A DNA stretch of 64,000 nt from Candidatus Fimadaptatus faecigallinarum (GTDB lineage: Bacteria; Bacillota; Clostridia; Christensenellales; Aristaeellaceae), in assembly GCA_018714445.1 (NCBI GenBank), contig DVNK01000032.1, positions 18,157 to 82,156 on the forward strand, given 5' to 3'. The position numbers and the translations under genes were made by a program. Below, in pieces: positions 51,266 to 63,667 of the stretch; the stretch's first letter is position 1, and each line of letters begins with the position of its first letter. The notes beneath the pieces were generated by a model, which worked only from the letters and a program-made list of their open reading frames with translations, had not been told where the DNA came from and made no database searches.

Positions 51266-51800
51266 GGGCGCCGGGCTTGGCAATATCGCCAGCTTTATCC
51301 ACAGCTCCAAGTTGCAAGTCAGATACGGCTTGCCGATCTAAGCCGTTTTAACTGATATGGATCGCCTGACCCAGCCATATCGCCGACTTTGTCCACAGCT
51401 CAAAGCTGCAAGTCAGATACGGCTTGCCGGTTTAAGCCGGTTTAGCTGTTATGGCGCCGGGCTTGGCAATATCGCCGGCTTTATCCACAGCTCCAAGCTG
51501 CAATTCAGATACGGCTTGCCGGGCTAAGCCGGTTTAACTGATATGGCGCCGGGCTTGGCAATATCGTTGGCTTCGTCCACAGCTCCAAGCTGCAAGTCAG
51601 ATACGGCTTGCCGATCTAAGCCGGTTTAACTGATATGGATCGCCTGACCCAGCCATATCGCCGACTTTATCCACAGCTCCAAGCTGCAATTCAGATACGG
51701 CTTGCCGGGCTAAGCCGGTTTAGCTGTTATGGCGCCGGGCTTGGCAATATCGCCGGCTTTATCCACAGCTCCAAGCTGCAAGTCAGATATGGCGTGCCCT
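51266..51800. repeat. Six-copy ~93-bp repeat array carrying DnaA-box-like 9-mers
   Basis: Six head-to-tail units of 92-94 bp occur in two types: A begins GGCGCCGGGCTTGGCAATATCG and B begins GGATCGCCTGACCCAGCCATATCG, ordered A-B-A-A-B-A. Each contains a 9-mer at 51295, 51389, 51481, 51573, 51667 and 51759. Four read TTATCCACA, the exact DnaA-box consensus; one is TTGTCCACA and one TCGTCCACA. All point the same way. A conserved CAGATACGGCTTGCC follows each. No dnaA or dnaN is near, so I do not call it oriC. The rest of 51801-51917 shows no gene. Confidence 0.85.
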
Positions 51801-53878: not shown

Positions 53879-54580
53879 GTGATTTTGTTGACATGACGGC
53901 CTGCAATTCCATGCGTCCTGTACCATGGCAGCATTGGCACATCATCCCCTGACAGCATCGCCGCATCGCGTTCGCCATTGCGGCTTAAACGTCGTGCAGG
54001 CGGCAACAGCCGTGCAAATGTGCGCCATCGCCCAGCGATACACAATCTGCTGCGGGCATTTGGTATGAATGGCAAGTTTGGGCCATGTGCCTGGCGCGCC
54101 GTTTGACGTATATGCTCAGGCACGCGGGCAGGGCTCGGGCACATGCCCGGCGCGCACATTGCGGTTTTCGGTCACACGCACAGCGGGTATTTGACGTGCG
54201 AACTCGGCCAGCGGCAGATCGCGGCCACGGCTCCCAGCTGCGCAGAGGCGTTCCGCACCATTCAGGCAATCAAAGCGACGAGCAATGCCGCCCTCCAGTG
54301 CATAAACGTTCAAGTCCAACCGCGCCGGATTATCATCCCATATAGTCGCAACAGCCGCGTTAGCACGCGTCAGCGTTTACCCGGTCGCGCAAGTTCACGG
54401 CCCTTTGCGGCGCGCCATAAGACAGATTTGAAAATAATTCCACATTTCCGACACCATTTCACATTTGCCCCACAAAATCTGCAACAAACGCCGCGCCAAA
54501 AGCGTTTATCAAGTGAACCGCGGATTACCGCTCCGCCGGCACGCAGCTTGCCGCGCAGCGCGGACTAGGAGCGTGATATT
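53879..54580. other. Gene-free divergent region between the ABC-F and sigma-factor genes
   Basis: No gene is supported in these 702 bases and no tandem repeat is seen. A frame at 54143-54568 contains FGHTHSGYL, reminiscent of calcineurin-type phosphoesterases, but has no other family feature. The region nearest the sigma gene (54420-54580) must contain its promoter; I could not identify an ECF-type consensus. Confidence 0.5.
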
Positions 54581-55126
54581 ATGTTCATATTGTTGAGTGT
54601 GTTTACGGCCGGACACACCGAACTGGATGTAGAGGCGCTGATCGACGCGCATTCAGGCGCGGTCAAGCGCTGCGCATATCTGTGCCTGCGCGACGAGCGC
54701 ATGGCCGAGGATGTATGCCAGGAGGTGTTCGTAAAGCTCTGGCAGTCCCCGCCGCGCGCCACTAATGAGGCCGGCATGCGCGCATGGTTGCTGCGCGTGA
54801 CGCTCAACGCATGCCGCAATATGCTGCGCACACCGTGGCATAGGCGCGTGCAGCACGGTCCGGACGAGGTATTCAACCAGCTTTCGGCCCAGGGGCCCAT
54901 GCCCGAGGCCGAAGCACTGCGCCGTGAGCGCGACGAGGCGCTCTATCAGGCCGTGATGGATCTGCCGCTCAAGTACCGCGAACCGATAATACTGCACTAC
55001 TACTTCGACGTCTCCCAGCGCGACACCGCGCGCATACTCGCCATAGGCGACAGCACACTGCGCACGCGCCTGCTGCGCGCACGCCTGCTGCTGCGTAAGG
55101 CGTTGGGCGAGGAAGTCGAACTCTAG
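54581..55126 (+). CDS. ECF-type RNA polymerase sigma factor
   Basis: The 181-residue protein starts at ATG 54581 after CTAGGAGCGTG. Sigma region 2 is visible as LIDAHSGAVKRCAYLCLRDERMAEDVCQEVFVKLWQ (residues 18-53, with the D-x-x-Q-x-x-F core). Region 4 is ALYQAVMDLPLKYREPIILHYYFDVSQRDTARILAIGDSTLRTRLLRARLLLRKAL (118-175). The intervening region 3 is missing, as in ECF (group 4) factors. The next gene, 67 bp downstream, starts with a short cytoplasmic segment and a TM helix and is probably the anti-sigma factor. ECF group cannot be assigned. Confidence 0.92.
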   Translation: MFILLSVFTAGHTELDVEALIDAHSGAVKRCAYLCLRDERMAEDVCQEVFVKLWQSPPRATNEAGMRAWLLRVTLNACRNMLRTPWHRRVQHGPDEVFNQLSAQGPMPEAEALRRERDEALYQAVMDLPLKYREPIILHYYFDVSQRDTARILAIGDSTLRTRLLRARLLLRKALGEEVEL

Positions 55127-55193
55127 CCGGCAGCAAGCCCAGACATACACCTATGCGCGCAGATCGCGCCTTCTGAAAGGCAGGTACTTTATC

Positions 55194-58145
55194 ATGAAAT
55201 ATTCGCTGAAGGATTTCAAGCGCGCCGCCGACCGCCATATAGGCAACATGGAGCCCAGCGCCGAGGGCCGCGCGCGACTGACCCGCCAGGTAAACCATAA
55301 ACCGTCGCCGATGAGTTGGCTGGGCTGGGCAGCGGTTGTTGCGGCGTGCCTGATAGTGGTGGCGCTGCTCAACCTGCCCGCGCCGCGCATGCACGACTCG
55401 CCCGACGACGGCCGGCCGCTCACCGGAGTTGTGCCGCTCGGCACCGAACGTCCGCTGGACACGCCCAGCCCCACGATGGCTGACGTCATGCCCACAGAGC
55501 TAGACCAATCGCTGAACACGCCCAACCCCACGATAGCTGACGTCATGCCCACGGGGCTAGACCTGTCGCTGAACACGCCCAGCCCCACGATGACTGACGC
55601 CATGCCCACAGAGCTAGACCAATCGCTGAACACGCCCAACCCCACGATAGCTGACGCCATGCCAACGGAGCTTGACCGGTCGCTGAACACGCCCAAACCT
55701 ACGATGGCTGACGCCATGCCAACAGACCTAGACCTGTCACTGAGCACGCCCAAACCTACGATGGCTGACGCCATGCCAACGGACCTAGACCAATCGCTGA
55801 GCACGCCCAACCCCACGCTTACGGCGATAATCACATCCGAGTCTTACGCATCGGCTTCGCCTTCCCCATCGCCAGCACCTGCTGCGACAAATTCCCCGTC
55901 GCCGTCGGCAACGCCCGCCGCGTCGCCTTCCGCCGCGCGCAGGCTGACTGCCCGCGACAGCGCGCTGCTGTGCAAGCGCGACGACGAATGCTTCGTTGGC
56001 TACGACCACGCGGGGCGCGCGTACATAATCAAAGACCTGCTGCAGGTATTCGACGAGAACTACTACGCTTACAGCGTGGATTTCAGCGACGAGTACTTCC
56101 TCACGCTTGAGGAAGTGCTGGCCACCGACGAGGGCCGCGCGTACTACGGCGTAGACAACCCTGACGACGTGACCAGCTACTTCTACCAGGCGCTCTGGCC
56201 GCGTCCCGAAGTCGTGACCTGGCTGCCCGACTGTTCGCCATCGAATTGGATAAGTTACTATACGGAACTGGACGTGGGCGTGGTGCAGTCGCTGCGGCAG
56301 CTGTCAAATGACGACATGTCCCGATTTGGGCTGGCAAGCGCCGACGGACTCATAACCCCGGCTGAATGCGTGGACATATTCGGCTTTACGACCGACGACG
56401 TAACCGTCGCGTCAGTGCCGGCGCTAGATGGATACAGCGCAAGCGCATATCGCAGTTATGGCGTGCTCAACGCGCGCGGCGAGTGGGTACGCCAGCCCGT
56501 GGCGGGCGAACTGGAAACGCTGTACGCCGACCTGGCCGGCAACGGCGGGAGCGTGCCGGTGTATTACATGCTGCGCACATACGCTGAGCTGGAGTTAAAG
56601 TACGATGAGGCAACCAGTGCAGAGTATATCGACTACGATTACGGCCCCACGCTCATAATGGATTTGTCGGGCAATGTGCTCATGACCGTGGATGAGTTCG
56701 GATACATGTTCATAAACACCCTGACCGACGCGCCAATACCGTACAAGGATATCGAGACCGGACTGTGGGGCTATGTCGACATGGACCTGAACATAGTCAT
56801 CCAGCCGCAGTACCTGAGCGCTCAGAACTTCGGCGGCGGACTGGCGGCGGTGAAGGTCGCCGTCGAGCCCAGCCCGGAAACCGGCAATTACAGCACGCTG
56901 TACGGCTTCATAGACGAGACCGGCGAACTGGTCATTGAGCCGCAGTACGCCCTTGTGATGAGCGGCTTTACCGATGAGGGCGGCAATGCCCGCGTATGGC
57001 TGCCCGATGACGACACCGTGCAACACACCATAGACCGCAATGGCAACGACGTGAGCAACCCGCTCTCGCTGACATGGCAGCGGCTGTTTGCGATGCGCGA
57101 GCGCGTGCCGCTCGTCCCGCGGCTCAGCACCTGGGCACTGCTGATGCTGCTGGCCATGACGATATCATGGAAACGGCTGCGCGGCTACCCGGATGGCTAC
57201 GGCGCTCAGAACAAGCGGATCAGCGCCGGCTTTGGGGGCTACATGGGCTTCATGTTGATGTACGCGGCGCTGGATGTCGGCATGCAGTCGGCACTGCCGG
57301 GGCTCATGCTGTTTAGCAGCGCGACCGGCTACGAGTGGACGGCATACGCGCTGGTCTTGGGTACGGCGGTACTGGGCGGCGCGATATACGGCTGGGCGGC
57401 GCGGGCGAGATGCCGCACGCGCATGGGGCTGGCGCTGTCCTGCCTGACGGCGGTGGCCTTGCCGGTCGCGGCGCGCTGGCTGATGGGCATGTGCACGCGC
57501 ATGGACATCGATGCAGCGCTGGCGTTGGCGCTGGGCATGGCTGCAGGCGCGCTGACAAGCGCCGAACGCGACGACGAACCGGTGAGCTTCAAGTACAGGC
57601 TTATATGCATGGCGCTGAGCGCAGCGCTGACTTTCGGCCCGCTTGCGCTCGACTCACAGGACCTGACGCCGCGCAGCTGGCCCGCGACTGCGGCGCTTGG
57701 CGAGGTCGAACTGACGCTGACTCCGCTCAGCGACCCGGCCAGTTTGGACTACGTGCGCGCCCGCGCCGACGACTCGTCGCTGGATGATGAGTATTTATCG
57801 ATGGTATACGGCGAGGACTGGCGCGACCAACTCGACGCGCTGCTAGCCGAGCCCGAGGGTTATGCGCTGCTCACACTGGACATACCGCTTTACAACCCCT
57901 ACCTGCGCGCGCAGAGCGTTGCCGCCTATGCCTACCTGACGCCCGATCCGGAAGCCGACGCGGCGTGTTCAAGCGCGTACCTCGAATCCGCATATGAGAT
58001 CATGGATTACGCCCCGCATGATCTCGCGCCGCTGACCAGTCAGACCGCTTCGGTCATGTACCTGGTGCGAGTCGGCGACACGCCGCTAGACGAGTGGCTT
58101 AACGGGCTGAAGGCGTGCTGCCGGATACAGGCAGGCGTATACTGA
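55194..58145 (+). CDS. Large membrane protein with WG repeats, probable anti-sigma partner
   Basis: The 983-residue protein begins with about 38 cytoplasmic residues (MKYSLKDFKRAADRHIGNMEP), then one TM helix (residues 40-61). Residues about 88-206 form six 19-residue repeats (TPNPTIADAMPTELDQSLN type), followed by a Ser/Pro/Ala linker and a large extracellular domain (215-640). WG-type beta repeats lie near 523 (LWGYVDMDLNIVIQPQY) and 569 (YGFIDETGELVIEPQY). About six TM helices follow (645-845) and a C-terminal globular part ends the protein. Position behind an ECF sigma gene suggests sigma-sequestering control; no classic zinc-binding anti-sigma motif is visible, so that role is inferred. 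Confidence 0.7.
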   Translation: MKYSLKDFKRAADRHIGNMEPSAEGRARLTRQVNHKPSPMSWLGWAAVVAACLIVVALLNLPAPRMHDSPDDGRPLTGVVPLGTERPLDTPSPTMADVMPTELDQSLNTPNPTIADVMPTGLDLSLNTPSPTMTDAMPTELDQSLNTPNPTIADAMPTELDRSLNTPKPTMADAMPTDLDLSLSTPKPTMADAMPTDLDQSLSTPNPTLTAIITSESYASASPSPSPAPAATNSPSPSATPAASPSAARRLTARDSALLCKRDDECFVGYDHAGRAYIIKDLLQVFDENYYAYSVDFSDEYFLTLEEVLATDEGRAYYGVDNPDDVTSYFYQALWPRPEVVTWLPDCSPSNWISYYTELDVGVVQSLRQLSNDDMSRFGLASADGLITPAECVDIFGFTTDDVTVASVPALDGYSASAYRSYGVLNARGEWVRQPVAGELETLYADLAGNGGSVPVYYMLRTYAELELKYDEATSAEYIDYDYGPTLIMDLSGNVLMTVDEFGYMFINTLTDAPIPYKDIETGLWGYVDMDLNIVIQPQYLSAQNFGGGLAAVKVAVEPSPETGNYSTLYGFIDETGELVIEPQYALVMSGFTDEGGNARVWLPDDDTVQHTIDRNGNDVSNPLSLTWQRLFAMRERVPLVPRLSTWALLMLLAMTISWKRLRGYPDGYGAQNKRISAGFGGYMGFMLMYAALDVGMQSALPGLMLFSSATGYEWTAYALVLGTAVLGGAIYGWAARARCRTRMGLALSCLTAVALPVAARWLMGMCTRMDIDAALALALGMAAGALTSAERDDEPVSFKYRLICMALSAALTFGPLALDSQDLTPRSWPATAALGEVELTLTPLSDPASLDYVRARADDSSLDDEYLSMVYGEDWRDQLDALLAEPEGYALLTLDIPLYNPYLRAQSVAAYAYLTPDPEADAACSSAYLESAYEIMDYAPHDLAPLTSQTASVMYLVRVGDTPLDEWLNGLKACCRIQAGVY
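55455..55812 (+). repeat. 57-bp in-frame repeat, six copies, in the WG-repeat protein
   Basis: A 57-bp unit encoding TP-x-PT-x-ADAMPT-x-LD-x-SLN recurs six times with a partial seventh. Proline and acidic residues alternate, suggesting an extended stalk outside the membrane. Copies are 85-95 percent alike by eye. Confidence 0.88.
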
Positions 58146-58439: not shown

Positions 58440-58853
58440 TTATCCGACCGCTATGACGCTGTCCATCACTTCGCCTTCTGATTGCTGCTGGCCGACCTGC
58501 GCGTCGCCGTCAGTCGTATCGTCGCTGCCGGCGTCCTCGCCGGTCATGTCACCGGCCATGTCGCCAGTCATATCCCCGGCCATGTCGCCGGTCATGTCAC
58601 CGGTCATATCACCGGATATGTCACCGGTCATGTCGCCAGTCATATTCCCGGACATATCCCCGGTCATGCCGCCATAACTCATGTCGCCGCCCAGCGCGTC
58701 ATCCGTCTGATCGGATACGCCCATGAGTTGCTTTACCATGTCGGGATTGCTTATCGCCACGCCATATATCATGACCACCAGCAATGCCAGCGCACATATG
58801 CCCAGCAGCGCCATGAAAAAGCCCGACGGCCCCCGCCGCGTAGAATTGTCCAT
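58440..58853 (-). CDS. Single-TM protein with Met-x-Gly-Asp tetrapeptide repeats
   Basis: The predicted protein has 137 residues from ATG 58853, 6-8 nt after GGGGGGAT; the ORF-track start adds 132 residues without a ribosome site. A short basic N-terminus (MDNSTRRGPSG) and one TM helix (FFMALLGICALALLVVMIYGVAI) are followed by an external domain with about 12 tandem tetrapeptides of the form M-(T/S/A)-G-D, then an acidic tail. The orientation expected from charges puts the repeats outside. Methionine and aspartate spacing suggests metal binding, for example copper or calcium, but nothing else supports it. I know no family with this repeat. Confidence 0.65.
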   Translation of the reverse strand: MDNSTRRGPSGFFMALLGICALALLVVMIYGVAISNPDMVKQLMGVSDQTDDALGGDMSYGGMTGDMSGNMTGDMTGDISGDMTGDMTGDMAGDMTGDMAGDMTGEDAGSDDTTDGDAQVGQQQSEGEVMDSVIAVG

Positions 58854-59007
58854 GCGTCCATCCCCCCAATATGCTCTGCTTATTAAGACTCGGGCGCGCG
58901 CGGTTTTGTTGCGTTTTCGGAGCAAAATGCGCCCTGTACGCGCATATACTATAACGTAAATAAAAATGCCGGCGATTGGGCCGCCGGCTGAATGGAGGCA
59001 GATCGAT

Positions 59008-59292
59008 TTGGATTTCGCGGTTTTCGTAACCAGCCGCATGCTGGCGGTGGTACCGGCGCTGTGGTTTGTGGGCTGGCTGCTCAAGCAGTCAAAGCTGCCC
59101 AATGCGCTGATACCATTTGTGCTGGCGGCGCTGGGCGCGGTCGCCGGCGTGCTGATCGACGGGCCGTCGGCCAACAGCGTGGTGCAGGGCATACTGGCCG
59201 CTGCGGCTGCGGTGTTCGGGCACCAGGCGGTCAAGCAGGGCACGACCATAGTCGCGCGCCAGTCACACGACGAACCCGGTCCTGCGGCTTAG
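59008..59292 (+). CDS. Holin-like small membrane protein (Hol44/holin V-type)
   Basis: The 94-residue protein starts at TTG 59008, 8 nt after GGAGGCAG. It has two or three hydrophobic segments (VFVTSRMLAVVPALWFVGWLLK, ALIPFVLAALGAVAGVLI and VVQGILAAAAAVFGHQAVK). The pattern of a short N-terminus, the LIP-like LPNALIPFVLAALG step and the C-terminal GILAAAAAVFGHQAVKQG resembles phage holin superfamily V (Hol44). No endolysin or phage gene is near, so it may be a domesticated holin used for protein release or wall turnover. The assignment is tentative. Confidence 0.6.
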   Translation: MDFAVFVTSRMLAVVPALWFVGWLLKQSKLPNALIPFVLAALGAVAGVLIDGPSANSVVQGILAAAAAVFGHQAVKQGTTIVARQSHDEPGPAA

Positions 59293-59293
59293 G

Positions 59294-60262
59294 TCAGCTC
59301 ACCGTCTGTTCATACATACCCAGCACGGCCATGTCGGCGTCCACGCCTTCAAACCCGTCCACAGCGTACACCAGCAGCGTCAGCTTGCAGCCGGTGATCT
59401 CGGTATCGGATATCGCCGACACCAGGCTGATCTCGCGCGGCATGTCCAGGCCGGCCTGAGTATACGACACCGGGTCGCCGTCGGCCTCCCATATAACTTC
59501 GCCATTGGCGTTGGTCAGCAGCGCGTGTATCTTGATGTCGTACAGATCGGGCTGGTTGGTGTAGAGCAGGCTCAGGCAACCGGTCGTGGTGCCCGTAACC
59601 ATAAGCGCCGGCGCGCCGTTTAAGTTGGTCAGCGTGCCAAGCTGCACCGTGACGTCGTAAATGTCAAACACCTGCGGGTCCTGTATGACCACATTGCCCA
59701 GCGTACTGGGCAGCGTCGTGAGCGCCTTTACGGTTATGTCAGGGCGTTCGGCCACTGCCTCTTCGGACGTCACGCACACTGTACACGGTTTGAGGCCGCG
59801 GTTATACGCCACCAGCATGGTCTCCTGAGTAGCGTTGCGCATGCCCTGGCAGTTTTCGTCAAAGTGGAAAGACTCGCCATTTTCGGTATCCCATACCAGC
59901 GGGCCTTCATTGACCGTGGGCGCGGGCGTGGGTGCGACAGTGGGCGTCGCGGTAGGCGCAGGCGATTCGCTTGAATCCGCCAGCGTGCCATCGGCGTTGG
60001 TCACTGCGGGCGTGGCGCTGGCGTTTGCGCCCAGCGCGTCCAGTTCGGTCGTGCCCTGGTTGCGCACGCCCCACTTCATGACCGAACCGCATATCAGCAC
60101 CACGCACAGCGCCATTGCGGTGAGCAGCCACACTATGGGCTGCTTATATACGGGGCGCTTGACCACGTATCTTCTGCGCCTTCGATTGCCTTGATACGCC
60201 GGCCGCCACACTGACCCGTTTTTTTCCGAATCGCGGCCGCGATTATTGCGATAGTCCGACAT
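59294..60262 (-). CDS. Single-TM protein with one Cys-His module
   Basis: The 322-residue protein starts at ATG 60262 behind TAAGGAGGCAACC. An Arg-rich cytoplasmic N-terminus (GNRRRRRYVVKRPVYK) precedes one TM helix (PIVWLLTAMALCVVLICGSVM, about 42-62). A Thr/Pro/Ala linker (80-115) follows, then the module FHFDENCQGMRNATQETMLVAYNRGLKPCTVC (about 130-162), whose His and three Cys could bind zinc. The same pattern occurs three times in the protein at 62237. The C-terminal half (165-322) looks like an all-beta domain of FxLYD type. Function is unknown; an envelope role is likely. Confidence 0.65.
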   Translation of the reverse strand: MSDYRNNRGRDSEKNGSVWRPAYQGNRRRRRYVVKRPVYKQPIVWLLTAMALCVVLICGSVMKWGVRNQGTTELDALGANASATPAVTNADGTLADSSESPAPTATPTVAPTPAPTVNEGPLVWDTENGESFHFDENCQGMRNATQETMLVAYNRGLKPCTVCVTSEEAVAERPDITVKALTTLPSTLGNVVIQDPQVFDIYDVTVQLGTLTNLNGAPALMVTGTTTGCLSLLYTNQPDLYDIKIHALLTNANGEVIWEADGDPVSYTQAGLDMPREISLVSAISDTEITGCKLTLLVYAVDGFEGVDADMAVLGMYEQTVS

Positions 60263-62236: not shown

Positions 62237-63667
62237 ATGCGCACAACCGATAACTTTGACCACGATCCGCCGCGCAAGGCAGCCAGCGATTCGCGTGCCT
62301 CCAGTACCGCACGCAATCAGGCGCCGCGCCAGCCGGTGCGCCGCCCGCCCGTTCAGATGGATAATGACTCATATGATGACGATATCCGCTACGACGATGA
62401 GCTGGACGAGCAGCAGGATCAATACGACCCCGAATACGATGAATACGACGACTACGATGAACCCGCACCCTGGTATGACAGCTTCTGGTTCATCTGCGTT
62501 TGCCTTGTTATATGCCCGCCGTATGCGCTATACCGCATATGGAAGGATGAACGCTTTACCCTCACCAATCGCTGGTTGATATCCGCAATCGACGTGTGCT
62601 GGATGCTTATAATACTTATACTGCTGTTCAGCTCGCTGTTCGCACGCGACAACTCCTCCAGCGACGTAAACGGCGTCAACTCCGTGCCCACTTCGGGCAT
62701 AGATATTTCGATGCCCTCGGCCGATCCCAATGCGTCGGCGTCGACCAGCCCCAGCGGCTCGGCAGGCCCGCAGGTGACGCCTGATCCCAACGCGTCGCCC
62801 AGCGCCTCGTCCACTGCGCTGGCTGGCAATACCGTGGCTCAGCCCGGTCAGAGCGCTGCGCCCGGCACTACGTTACGTCCCAGCTCGACCAGCACGGCTT
62901 CGGCCACTACCAGACCCACTTCTACGACAAACTCGTCTCAGAAGGTCTGGTATACCTCGGGCGGCACCTACTACCACAGCACCAGCACCTGCGGCGGCAC
63001 CATGAGCGGAGCCAGCCAGCATACGCTGGCCGAGGCGGAAGCGGCTAACAAGAAGCGCTGCCCGTACTGCTATGACGGCGTGCCGCGCGGCGATTCGTCC
63101 TCCGGCTCGTCTTCGGGCTCGTCGACGACGCATACTACCGTCACCCGTACGGCGCGGCCCACTACTCGCCCCACCGCGCGCGTGACCCAGCGTCCGACCG
63201 CTAACGCTACTACCGTGGTGGTCACGCCTACGCCGCAGCCCACGCCCTCTTCGACTTCGCCGTACGCGGTCATGGTCTACTTCAACGTCAACGGCGAGTA
63301 CTACCACAGCATAAGCAACTGCCAGGGCATGAAGAATGCCGGCTACTACACGATAGGTCAGGCCATAGACGCCGGTAAGAAGCGCTGCCCGGTCTGCAAC
63401 GCGCCCGAGCCCGGCTCGACTGTGACGCCGTCGCCGTCGCCGGTACCCACGCCCACGCCGGTACCCACACCCATAATTCACATAGTCTGGTATCGTCCGG
63501 ACAGCCAGTGGTATCACGCGGTAAGCAATTGCCAGGGCATGGTAGGTGCAACCCGCCATACGCTGGGCGAGGCTATCGACGACAACAAGCCGCCGTGCCC
63601 GTACTGCCATCCGCCGACGGCTGACAGCATCTACGCCACGGCAACGCCGATGCCCACAGGTAACTGA
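62237..63667 (+). CDS. Membrane protein with three Cys-His modules
   Basis: The 476-residue protein starts at ATG 62237 behind TAAAGGAGCGTCC. An acidic N-terminus (residues 1-75, many Asp/Glu/Tyr) precedes two hydrophobic stretches (about 80-99 and 113-135). A long Ser/Thr/Pro linker follows, then three copies of a module with the pattern W/Y-x-YH-S/A-x-S/T-x-C-(8-11)-T-x-x-EA-x-x-x-x-K-x-x-C-x-x-C near residues 235-275, 345-390 and 415-455. The single His and three Cys per copy could hold zinc. One copy occurs in the protein at 59294. The family is known to me only as a domain seen at the ends of secreted Clostridia proteins. A terminator follows. Confidence 0.7.
   Translation: MRTTDNFDHDPPRKAASDSRASSTARNQAPRQPVRRPPVQMDNDSYDDDIRYDDELDEQQDQYDPEYDEYDDYDEPAPWYDSFWFICVCLVICPPYALYRIWKDERFTLTNRWLISAIDVCWMLIILILLFSSLFARDNSSSDVNGVNSVPTSGIDISMPSADPNASASTSPSGSAGPQVTPDPNASPSASSTALAGNTVAQPGQSAAPGTTLRPSSTSTASATTRPTSTTNSSQKVWYTSGGTYYHSTSTCGGTMSGASQHTLAEAEAANKKRCPYCYDGVPRGDSSSGSSSGSSTTHTTVTRTARPTTRPTARVTQRPTANATTVVVTPTPQPTPSSTSPYAVMVYFNVNGEYYHSISNCQGMKNAGYYTIGQAIDAGKKRCPVCNAPEPGSTVTPSPSPVPTPTPVPTPIIHIVWYRPDSQWYHAVSNCQGMVGATRHTLGEAIDDNKPPCPYCHPPTADSIYATATPMPTGN

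Follow-up and report, generated by a model that had tools for sequence, protein, structure and literature searches.

Gene order and layout of the locus

The window, i.e., the whole 64,000-nucleotide stretch of DNA analysed here, holds a sigma factor gene that is followed after a gap of 67 bp (55127 to 55193) by the gene of a large membrane protein (Table 1), with coordinates and lengths exactly as given in the original prediction for this pair. The ATG at 55194 is the earliest ATG, GTG, or TTG of the membrane protein frame, and a search for a terminator 3' of 58145 found none. Both Sigma70_r2 (4.3e-13) and Sigma70_r4_2 (2.5e-11) match the sigma factor above their Pfam cut-offs, and the presence of regions 2 and 4 in the absence of region 3 identifies it as an ECF sigma factor. 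In an NCBIfam search, its best matches are likewise sigma factor models, with TIGR02937 above cut-off and PRK09415 at the top but below its own cut-off.

Table 1. Features of the sigma factor locus (positions in the window)
Feature	Positions	Strand	Evidence and remarks
Putative autoregulatory ECF promoter, TGCAAC-N17-CGTT	54480..54506	+	Ends 74 bp 5' of the sigma start codon
ECF sigma factor gene	54581..55126	+	181 aa; Pfam Sigma70_r2 and Sigma70_r4_2; regions 2 and 4 only
983-aa membrane protein, putative cognate anti-sigma factor	55194..58145	+	Single open frame; synteny with small WG proteins of nine relatives
Residues 1-42, short cytoplasmic segment, putative sigma-binding domain	55194..55319	+	N-terminal profile match; charge
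TM1, residues 43-61, with AA motifs	55320..55376	+	Hydropathy 2.47
Pro/Thr/acidic stalk, 57-bp (19-residue) tandem repeat, 6.4 copies	55453..55817	+	Tandem Repeats Finder, 87% matches
Pro/Ser-rich linker, residues about 209-250	55818..55943	+	Read directly from the sequence
Ectodomain without detectable homologues, residues about 251-524	55944..56765	+	Pfam and family-genome searches
Two WG repeats, about residues 525-601	56766..56996	+	PF14903, E 8.9e-14
Predicted polytopic module, about six TM helices, residues 640-820	57111..57653	+	Hydropathy, loop charge, low-confidence AlphaFold helices
Acidic C-terminal domain, residues 821-983 (163 residues), predicted outside, mixed alpha/beta	57654..58142	+	Charge, AlphaFold

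The layout of the large protein is also the one described originally, comprising a short N-terminus, one transmembrane segment (TM1), a 19-residue proline/acidic repeat, WG repeats, about six more TM helices, and a C-terminal domain. The six later helices are a prediction, because hydropathy is strong for TM1 and weaker for the six hydrophobic stretches at about residues 640 to 820, and because the single-sequence AlphaFold model of the C-terminal part, which places helices at the predicted TM positions, is of low confidence (mean pLDDT 55). Loop charges fit an arrangement with the N-terminus inside and both the ectodomain and the C-terminus outside. The cytoplasmic segment is basic (9 K+R versus 4 D+E) and free of cysteine, and TM1 carries the AA motif GWAAVVAACLIVV where relatives have motifs of the LAAAC and CAAAG type. 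Copies of the stalk repeat are about 87% alike at the DNA level, which suggests that the stalk expanded fairly recently. The WG repeat units (56766 to 56858 and 56901 to 56996) match PF14903 with 51.7 bits at a cut-off of 25.6, and residues 216-518 before them have no Pfam match up to E = 10. The C-terminal domain (27 D+E versus 8 K+R) is modelled with helices and strands, most blocks at pLDDT 50 to 88. A structure prediction had been proposed for residues 215-640 and was run as a single-sequence AlphaFold model of residues 216-661, which was unusable (pLDDT 36).

Other parts of the window hold further repeat-bearing sequences. A 92-bp tandem repeat of 5.7 copies (51267 to 51798) separates a DUF1062 gene from an ABC-F-like gene, and a 269-aa frame without Pfam match (58440 to 59249, minus strand) ends in a Met-Thr-Gly-Asp repeat tail of 12-bp units. 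Two membrane-anchored proteins (59294 to 60262, minus strand; 62237 to 63667, plus strand), again without Pfam match, have in common a unit like HxxxNCQGMxxA...PCxxC, of which the second has about three copies.

The sigma gene and a WG-type partner in nine relatives

Outside of the organism's own genome, the window sigma factor has its best match in another family of the order (G057, 40% identity), and its closest relatives are 35% to 43% identical. A two-row sigma model separates nine species of that family (222 to 331 bits) from all others (at most 161 bits), a gap that is partly built in since the model contained one of the nine. It had been proposed to look for the same pair in relatives, where a sigma gene lying next to unrelated genes would have spoken against a link. 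In all nine of these closest relatives (L123-L131, of which L128 was read by hand), the ECF sigma gene is instead followed by the gene of a protein of about 174 to 204 residues, in which a short N-terminus and a TM are joined by a linker to a WG-like unit at the C-terminus. PF14903 exceeds its cut-off in five of the eight small proteins scanned; it is below cut-off in L129, marginal in L131, and visible by alignment only in L130. These proteins resemble the window protein in their ECF sigma neighbour, in their N-terminus with its single TM, and in having a WG-like unit, but that unit is the only one and lies at the C-terminus, and they have neither a stalk nor extra TMs; their genes overlap the sigma gene by a few bases where the window has its 67-bp gap. 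Most of the species with a WG-type pair recur among the best 80 loci from 84,980 scanned species (L181-L188, public copies that include "Christensenella sp." and uncultured Clostridia MAGs), and the non-WG loci among these 80 (L189-L260) carry other ectodomains.

The relatives also share a candidate promoter with the window. AAC-N17-CGTT lies 5' of the sigma gene in the window (54483 to 54506) and in 9/9 relatives of the WG clade, compared to 1 of 71 control sigma genes, and the probability of its chance occurrence in a random 130-bp piece of the window is 0.0074 (0.74%). Across the organism's own genome, TGNAAC-N17-CGTTT occurs at three sites, two of them inside genes, and this search revealed no further convincing targets of the sigma factor.

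WG repeats occur widely in the genomes of clostridia. For the stalk, the domain before the WG repeats, the polytopic module, and the C-terminal domain, no homologues could be detected in the genome sets searched; specifically, no orthologue was found in 308 genomes of the organism's own family, where all matches lie at or around the WG units, and no homologue of the C-terminal part among 297 genomes of the order. Weak matches to the C-terminal module among 381 genomes of the class (G500 and G663) were spurious, one being a WG-repeat protein and the other an ectodomain that bears repeats but is unrelated. Searches with the whole protein gave weak matches at residues 183-324 (L028, which shares a Pro/Thr linker, L033, and L034), the viral contigs searched hold no relative, and a plasmid search returned one distant WG-repeat match. 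A structure search with the C-terminal model had zero matches at E <= 0.001. Other genomes of the organism's family encode secreted WG-repeat proteins (L265-L278) with a first unit similar to the one in the window protein (DPETGLWGYID), and no sigma gene was seen in their fetched flanks.

ECF-linked membrane proteins across the lineage

Almost every related ECF gene of the lineage is followed by a gene for a membrane protein that has one TM and, before it, a short cytoplasmic N-terminus. Our comparison set comprises 83 loci fetched via sigma similarity, with a few from the same species twice, and every next gene with a detected TM encodes exactly one at the hydropathy threshold used, at which the window protein has a second. 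These next genes encode a median of 309 residues and usually overlap the sigma gene by 4 to 50 bp, and none of the 83 loci shows a polytopic C-terminal module. Other ECF sigma genes of the organism's own genome are followed by one-TM proteins of 356 aa (contig C18), 1343 aa (contig C32), 407 aa (C48), and 296 aa (C31). The initial statement that anti-sigma factors normally have 100 to 300 residues thus does not hold in this lineage, and large size alone is not new. A sigma factor followed by a membrane protein with a large ectodomain being the rule here, the main peculiarities of the window protein are the polytopic C-terminus, the WG ectodomain, and the 67-bp gap.

The 1343-aa protein (L075:2242-6273) resembles the window protein in its link to an ECF sigma factor, its short N-terminus, its one TM, and a very large repeat-bearing ectodomain, but it lacks WG repeats; the IGVIGGADG(S/P)T repeats of its predicted outer domain instead match, in four stretches, a fragment of the beta subunit of oxaloacetate decarboxylase (OAD_beta, PF03977). 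The 356-aa protein (L072:6402-7469, minus strand) combines an RsgI_M domain with a tail of Gly/Asn/Gln-rich repeats, and its sigma factor looks ECF-type rather than like SigI.

Relationship of the window pair to the WG-type pairs

A profile built from 74 sigma-linked N-termini matches residues 1-45 of the window protein with 13.8 bits, a modest score that was reached by none of 3000 shuffles and none of 159 controls, i.e., TM proteins not adjoining a sigma gene. With the nine species only, the profile scores 14.0 bits (again 0/3000 shuffles and 0/159 controls), and leaving this group out lowers the score to 9.4 bits, reached by one control and one shuffle. In the best sigma tree, the window sigma factor sits on a very long branch outside the WG clade, and a tree constrained to unite them is not rejected (p-AU 0.446).

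This uncertain placement of a long branch would fit the strongest alternative to common descent, in which WG-type pairs have two separate origins. In this genome, an unrelated ECF sigma factor may have come to pair with a WG ectodomain, for which the secreted WG proteins of the organism's family, with their similar first unit, are a possible source, and the likeness to the nine pairs would then be convergence with an unchanged anti-sigma role. The window ectodomain and C-terminus, for which no ortholog was found, agree with such an origin. We consider it possible but rather doubtful, as the sigma rows nearest to the window by both path and identity are those of the WG clade, the N17-CGTT promoter spacing common to this clade and the window is rare elsewhere, and the N-terminus of the window protein aligns with that of L131. 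Common descent of the window pair with the nine WG-type pairs is therefore favoured, though not proven, because promoter, N-terminus, and domain content agree and the tree leaves the choice open.

A putative membrane-anchored anti-sigma factor

Several observations fit a cognate anti-sigma factor: the gene of the large protein adjoins the sigma gene, the pairing is conserved, and a cytoplasmic N-terminus, the putative sigma-binding part, precedes the TM. The promoter motif shared with the relatives, the N-terminal profile match, and the one-TM layout of the linked loci point the same way. Arguments against this reading are the 67-bp gap, which departs from the usual overlap, the long branch of the sigma factor, the modest profile score, and the genome search that gave no further convincing targets. 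On balance, we favour the reading in which the first gene encodes an autoregulated ECF sigma factor and the second its cognate anti-sigma factor, anchored in the membrane, with a probability of roughly 0.74.

Class I anti-sigma domains average about 101 +/- 33 residues, have at least 50, and often contain an Hx3Cx2C motif (PMC7406223). A domain of this kind (RseA/RsiW type) is not recognizable in the window protein, which has 42 residues before TM1, no cysteine, and no Pfam match there. With an N-terminus of fewer than 50 residues and no cysteine, its sigma-binding part would be of a class II-like kind instead, comparable in small size and lack of a zinc motif to CnrY-type factors, which wrap sigma4 and sigma2 with two helices; this likeness is one of size and motif content rather than of established sequence similarity.

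Among anti-sigma factors with large sensors, RsiV of Bacillus subtilis (the DUF4179 anti-sigma factor of the sigma V system) shares with the window protein a short cytoplasmic part, one TM, a large outer sensor, and an ECF sigma partner, and is known to work by regulated intramembrane proteolysis (PMC6066255). Unlike the window protein, it has no polytopic part, and its DUF4179 and lysozyme-binding domains were not detected in the window protein (DUF4179 not being listed around TM1 up to E = 1 in Pfam). DUF4179 is the site-1 control element of RsiV, and its absence likewise speaks against the reading favoured here. RsgI of Clostridium thermocellum has an N-terminal sigma-binding part, one TM with an XAA motif, and large variable sensor domains (PMC12203970), but it pairs with SigI and not with an ECF sigma factor of this group; neither RsgI_M nor any other N-terminal or central RsgI domain is listed for the window protein up to E = 1, and RsgI_M was detected in the C18 pair of the same genome. 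The XAA sites in the TM of RsgI are read by ClpXP after RseP cleavage (PMC12203970), and the AA motifs in TM1 of the window protein resemble them. RsiV and RsgI serve as our working models, with a cut outside followed by a cut in the membrane by an M50 protease and then by breakdown through cytosolic proteases such as ClpXP (PMC6066255; PMC12203970).

By analogy, we infer that residues 1-42 would hold the sigma factor at the membrane while the stalk, the unique domain, and the WG repeats sense or present something on the outer face, from where the signal would pass through TM1. On activation, a first cut of the anti-sigma factor would most likely fall outside TM1 and a second one within TM1, made by the M50 site-2 protease, for which the genome has a strong match (3.8e-55); a genome search for PrsW as the site-1 protease found none. 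Clp would then most likely degrade the remnant so that the free sigma factor transcribes its own operon and its targets. The ancestral form was probably a protein of about 180 residues with N-terminus, TM, linker, and one WG unit as kept in the nine relatives, and the window lineage would have gained the repeat stalk, further ectodomain, and the six-TM C-terminal module.

How this module might contribute can be read in more than one way. Fused to the anti-sigma factor, it or the outer C-terminal domain could form a second sensor besides the WG ectodomain, with two signals being integrated before sigma release, an elaboration that we regard as improbable. We give still less credit to an anti-sigma factor working without proteolysis, in which a transporter- or channel-like module would be the primary sensor and free the sigma factor by a conformational change via TM1. 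The about six extra TMs and the C-terminal domain predicted outside, missing from all 83 comparable loci, would suit this idea, as does the lack of the DUF4179 element, but the module shows no homology to any transporter or Pfam family, its poor structure model has no significant match, and the AA motifs of TM1 are like those of proteolytically released anti-sigma factors. Similarly implausible is a role of the large protein not as inhibitor but as target, effector, or positive co-regulator of the sigma factor. Its position behind an apparent autoregulatory promoter and a 67-bp gap as well as large extra domains found in no other linked protein could be taken this way, yet the nine relatives keep the same gene order, and the short cytoplasmic N-terminus is common to the proteins beside nearly all related sigma factors, whose ectodomains otherwise differ. 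Finally, the long frame could be a recent fusion, or an artefact of assembly, in which a small anti-sigma factor is joined to an unrelated membrane protein gene. This would explain why the relatives end soon after the WG unit and why no homologue of the C-terminal module lies beside an anti-sigma factor, but it is very unlikely given one uninterrupted frame of 983 codons, positive-inside charges that are consistent along the whole protein, and matches of both the N-terminal and the WG parts to relatives.

Novelty and implications

The pair was originally taken for an undescribed sigma-control system. This is too strong for the core sigma/anti-sigma layout, which is the norm in the lineage and resembles RsiV and RsgI. 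The unusual parts are the pairing of WG repeats with an ECF sigma factor and the predicted polytopic C-terminal module, which we propose to be new. We found nothing relevant in the literature on WG repeats with ECF or other sigma factors, and no paper on a role of WG repeats in any signalling system; subscription literature was thinly covered, so the pairing may be recorded somewhere. The conserved pairing with an ECF sigma factor would give WG repeats a signalling function, and AAC-N17-CGTT would be a testable promoter that could be used as a reporter. The enlarged form in the window shows how far the ectodomain of a putative anti-sigma factor can grow in this lineage.
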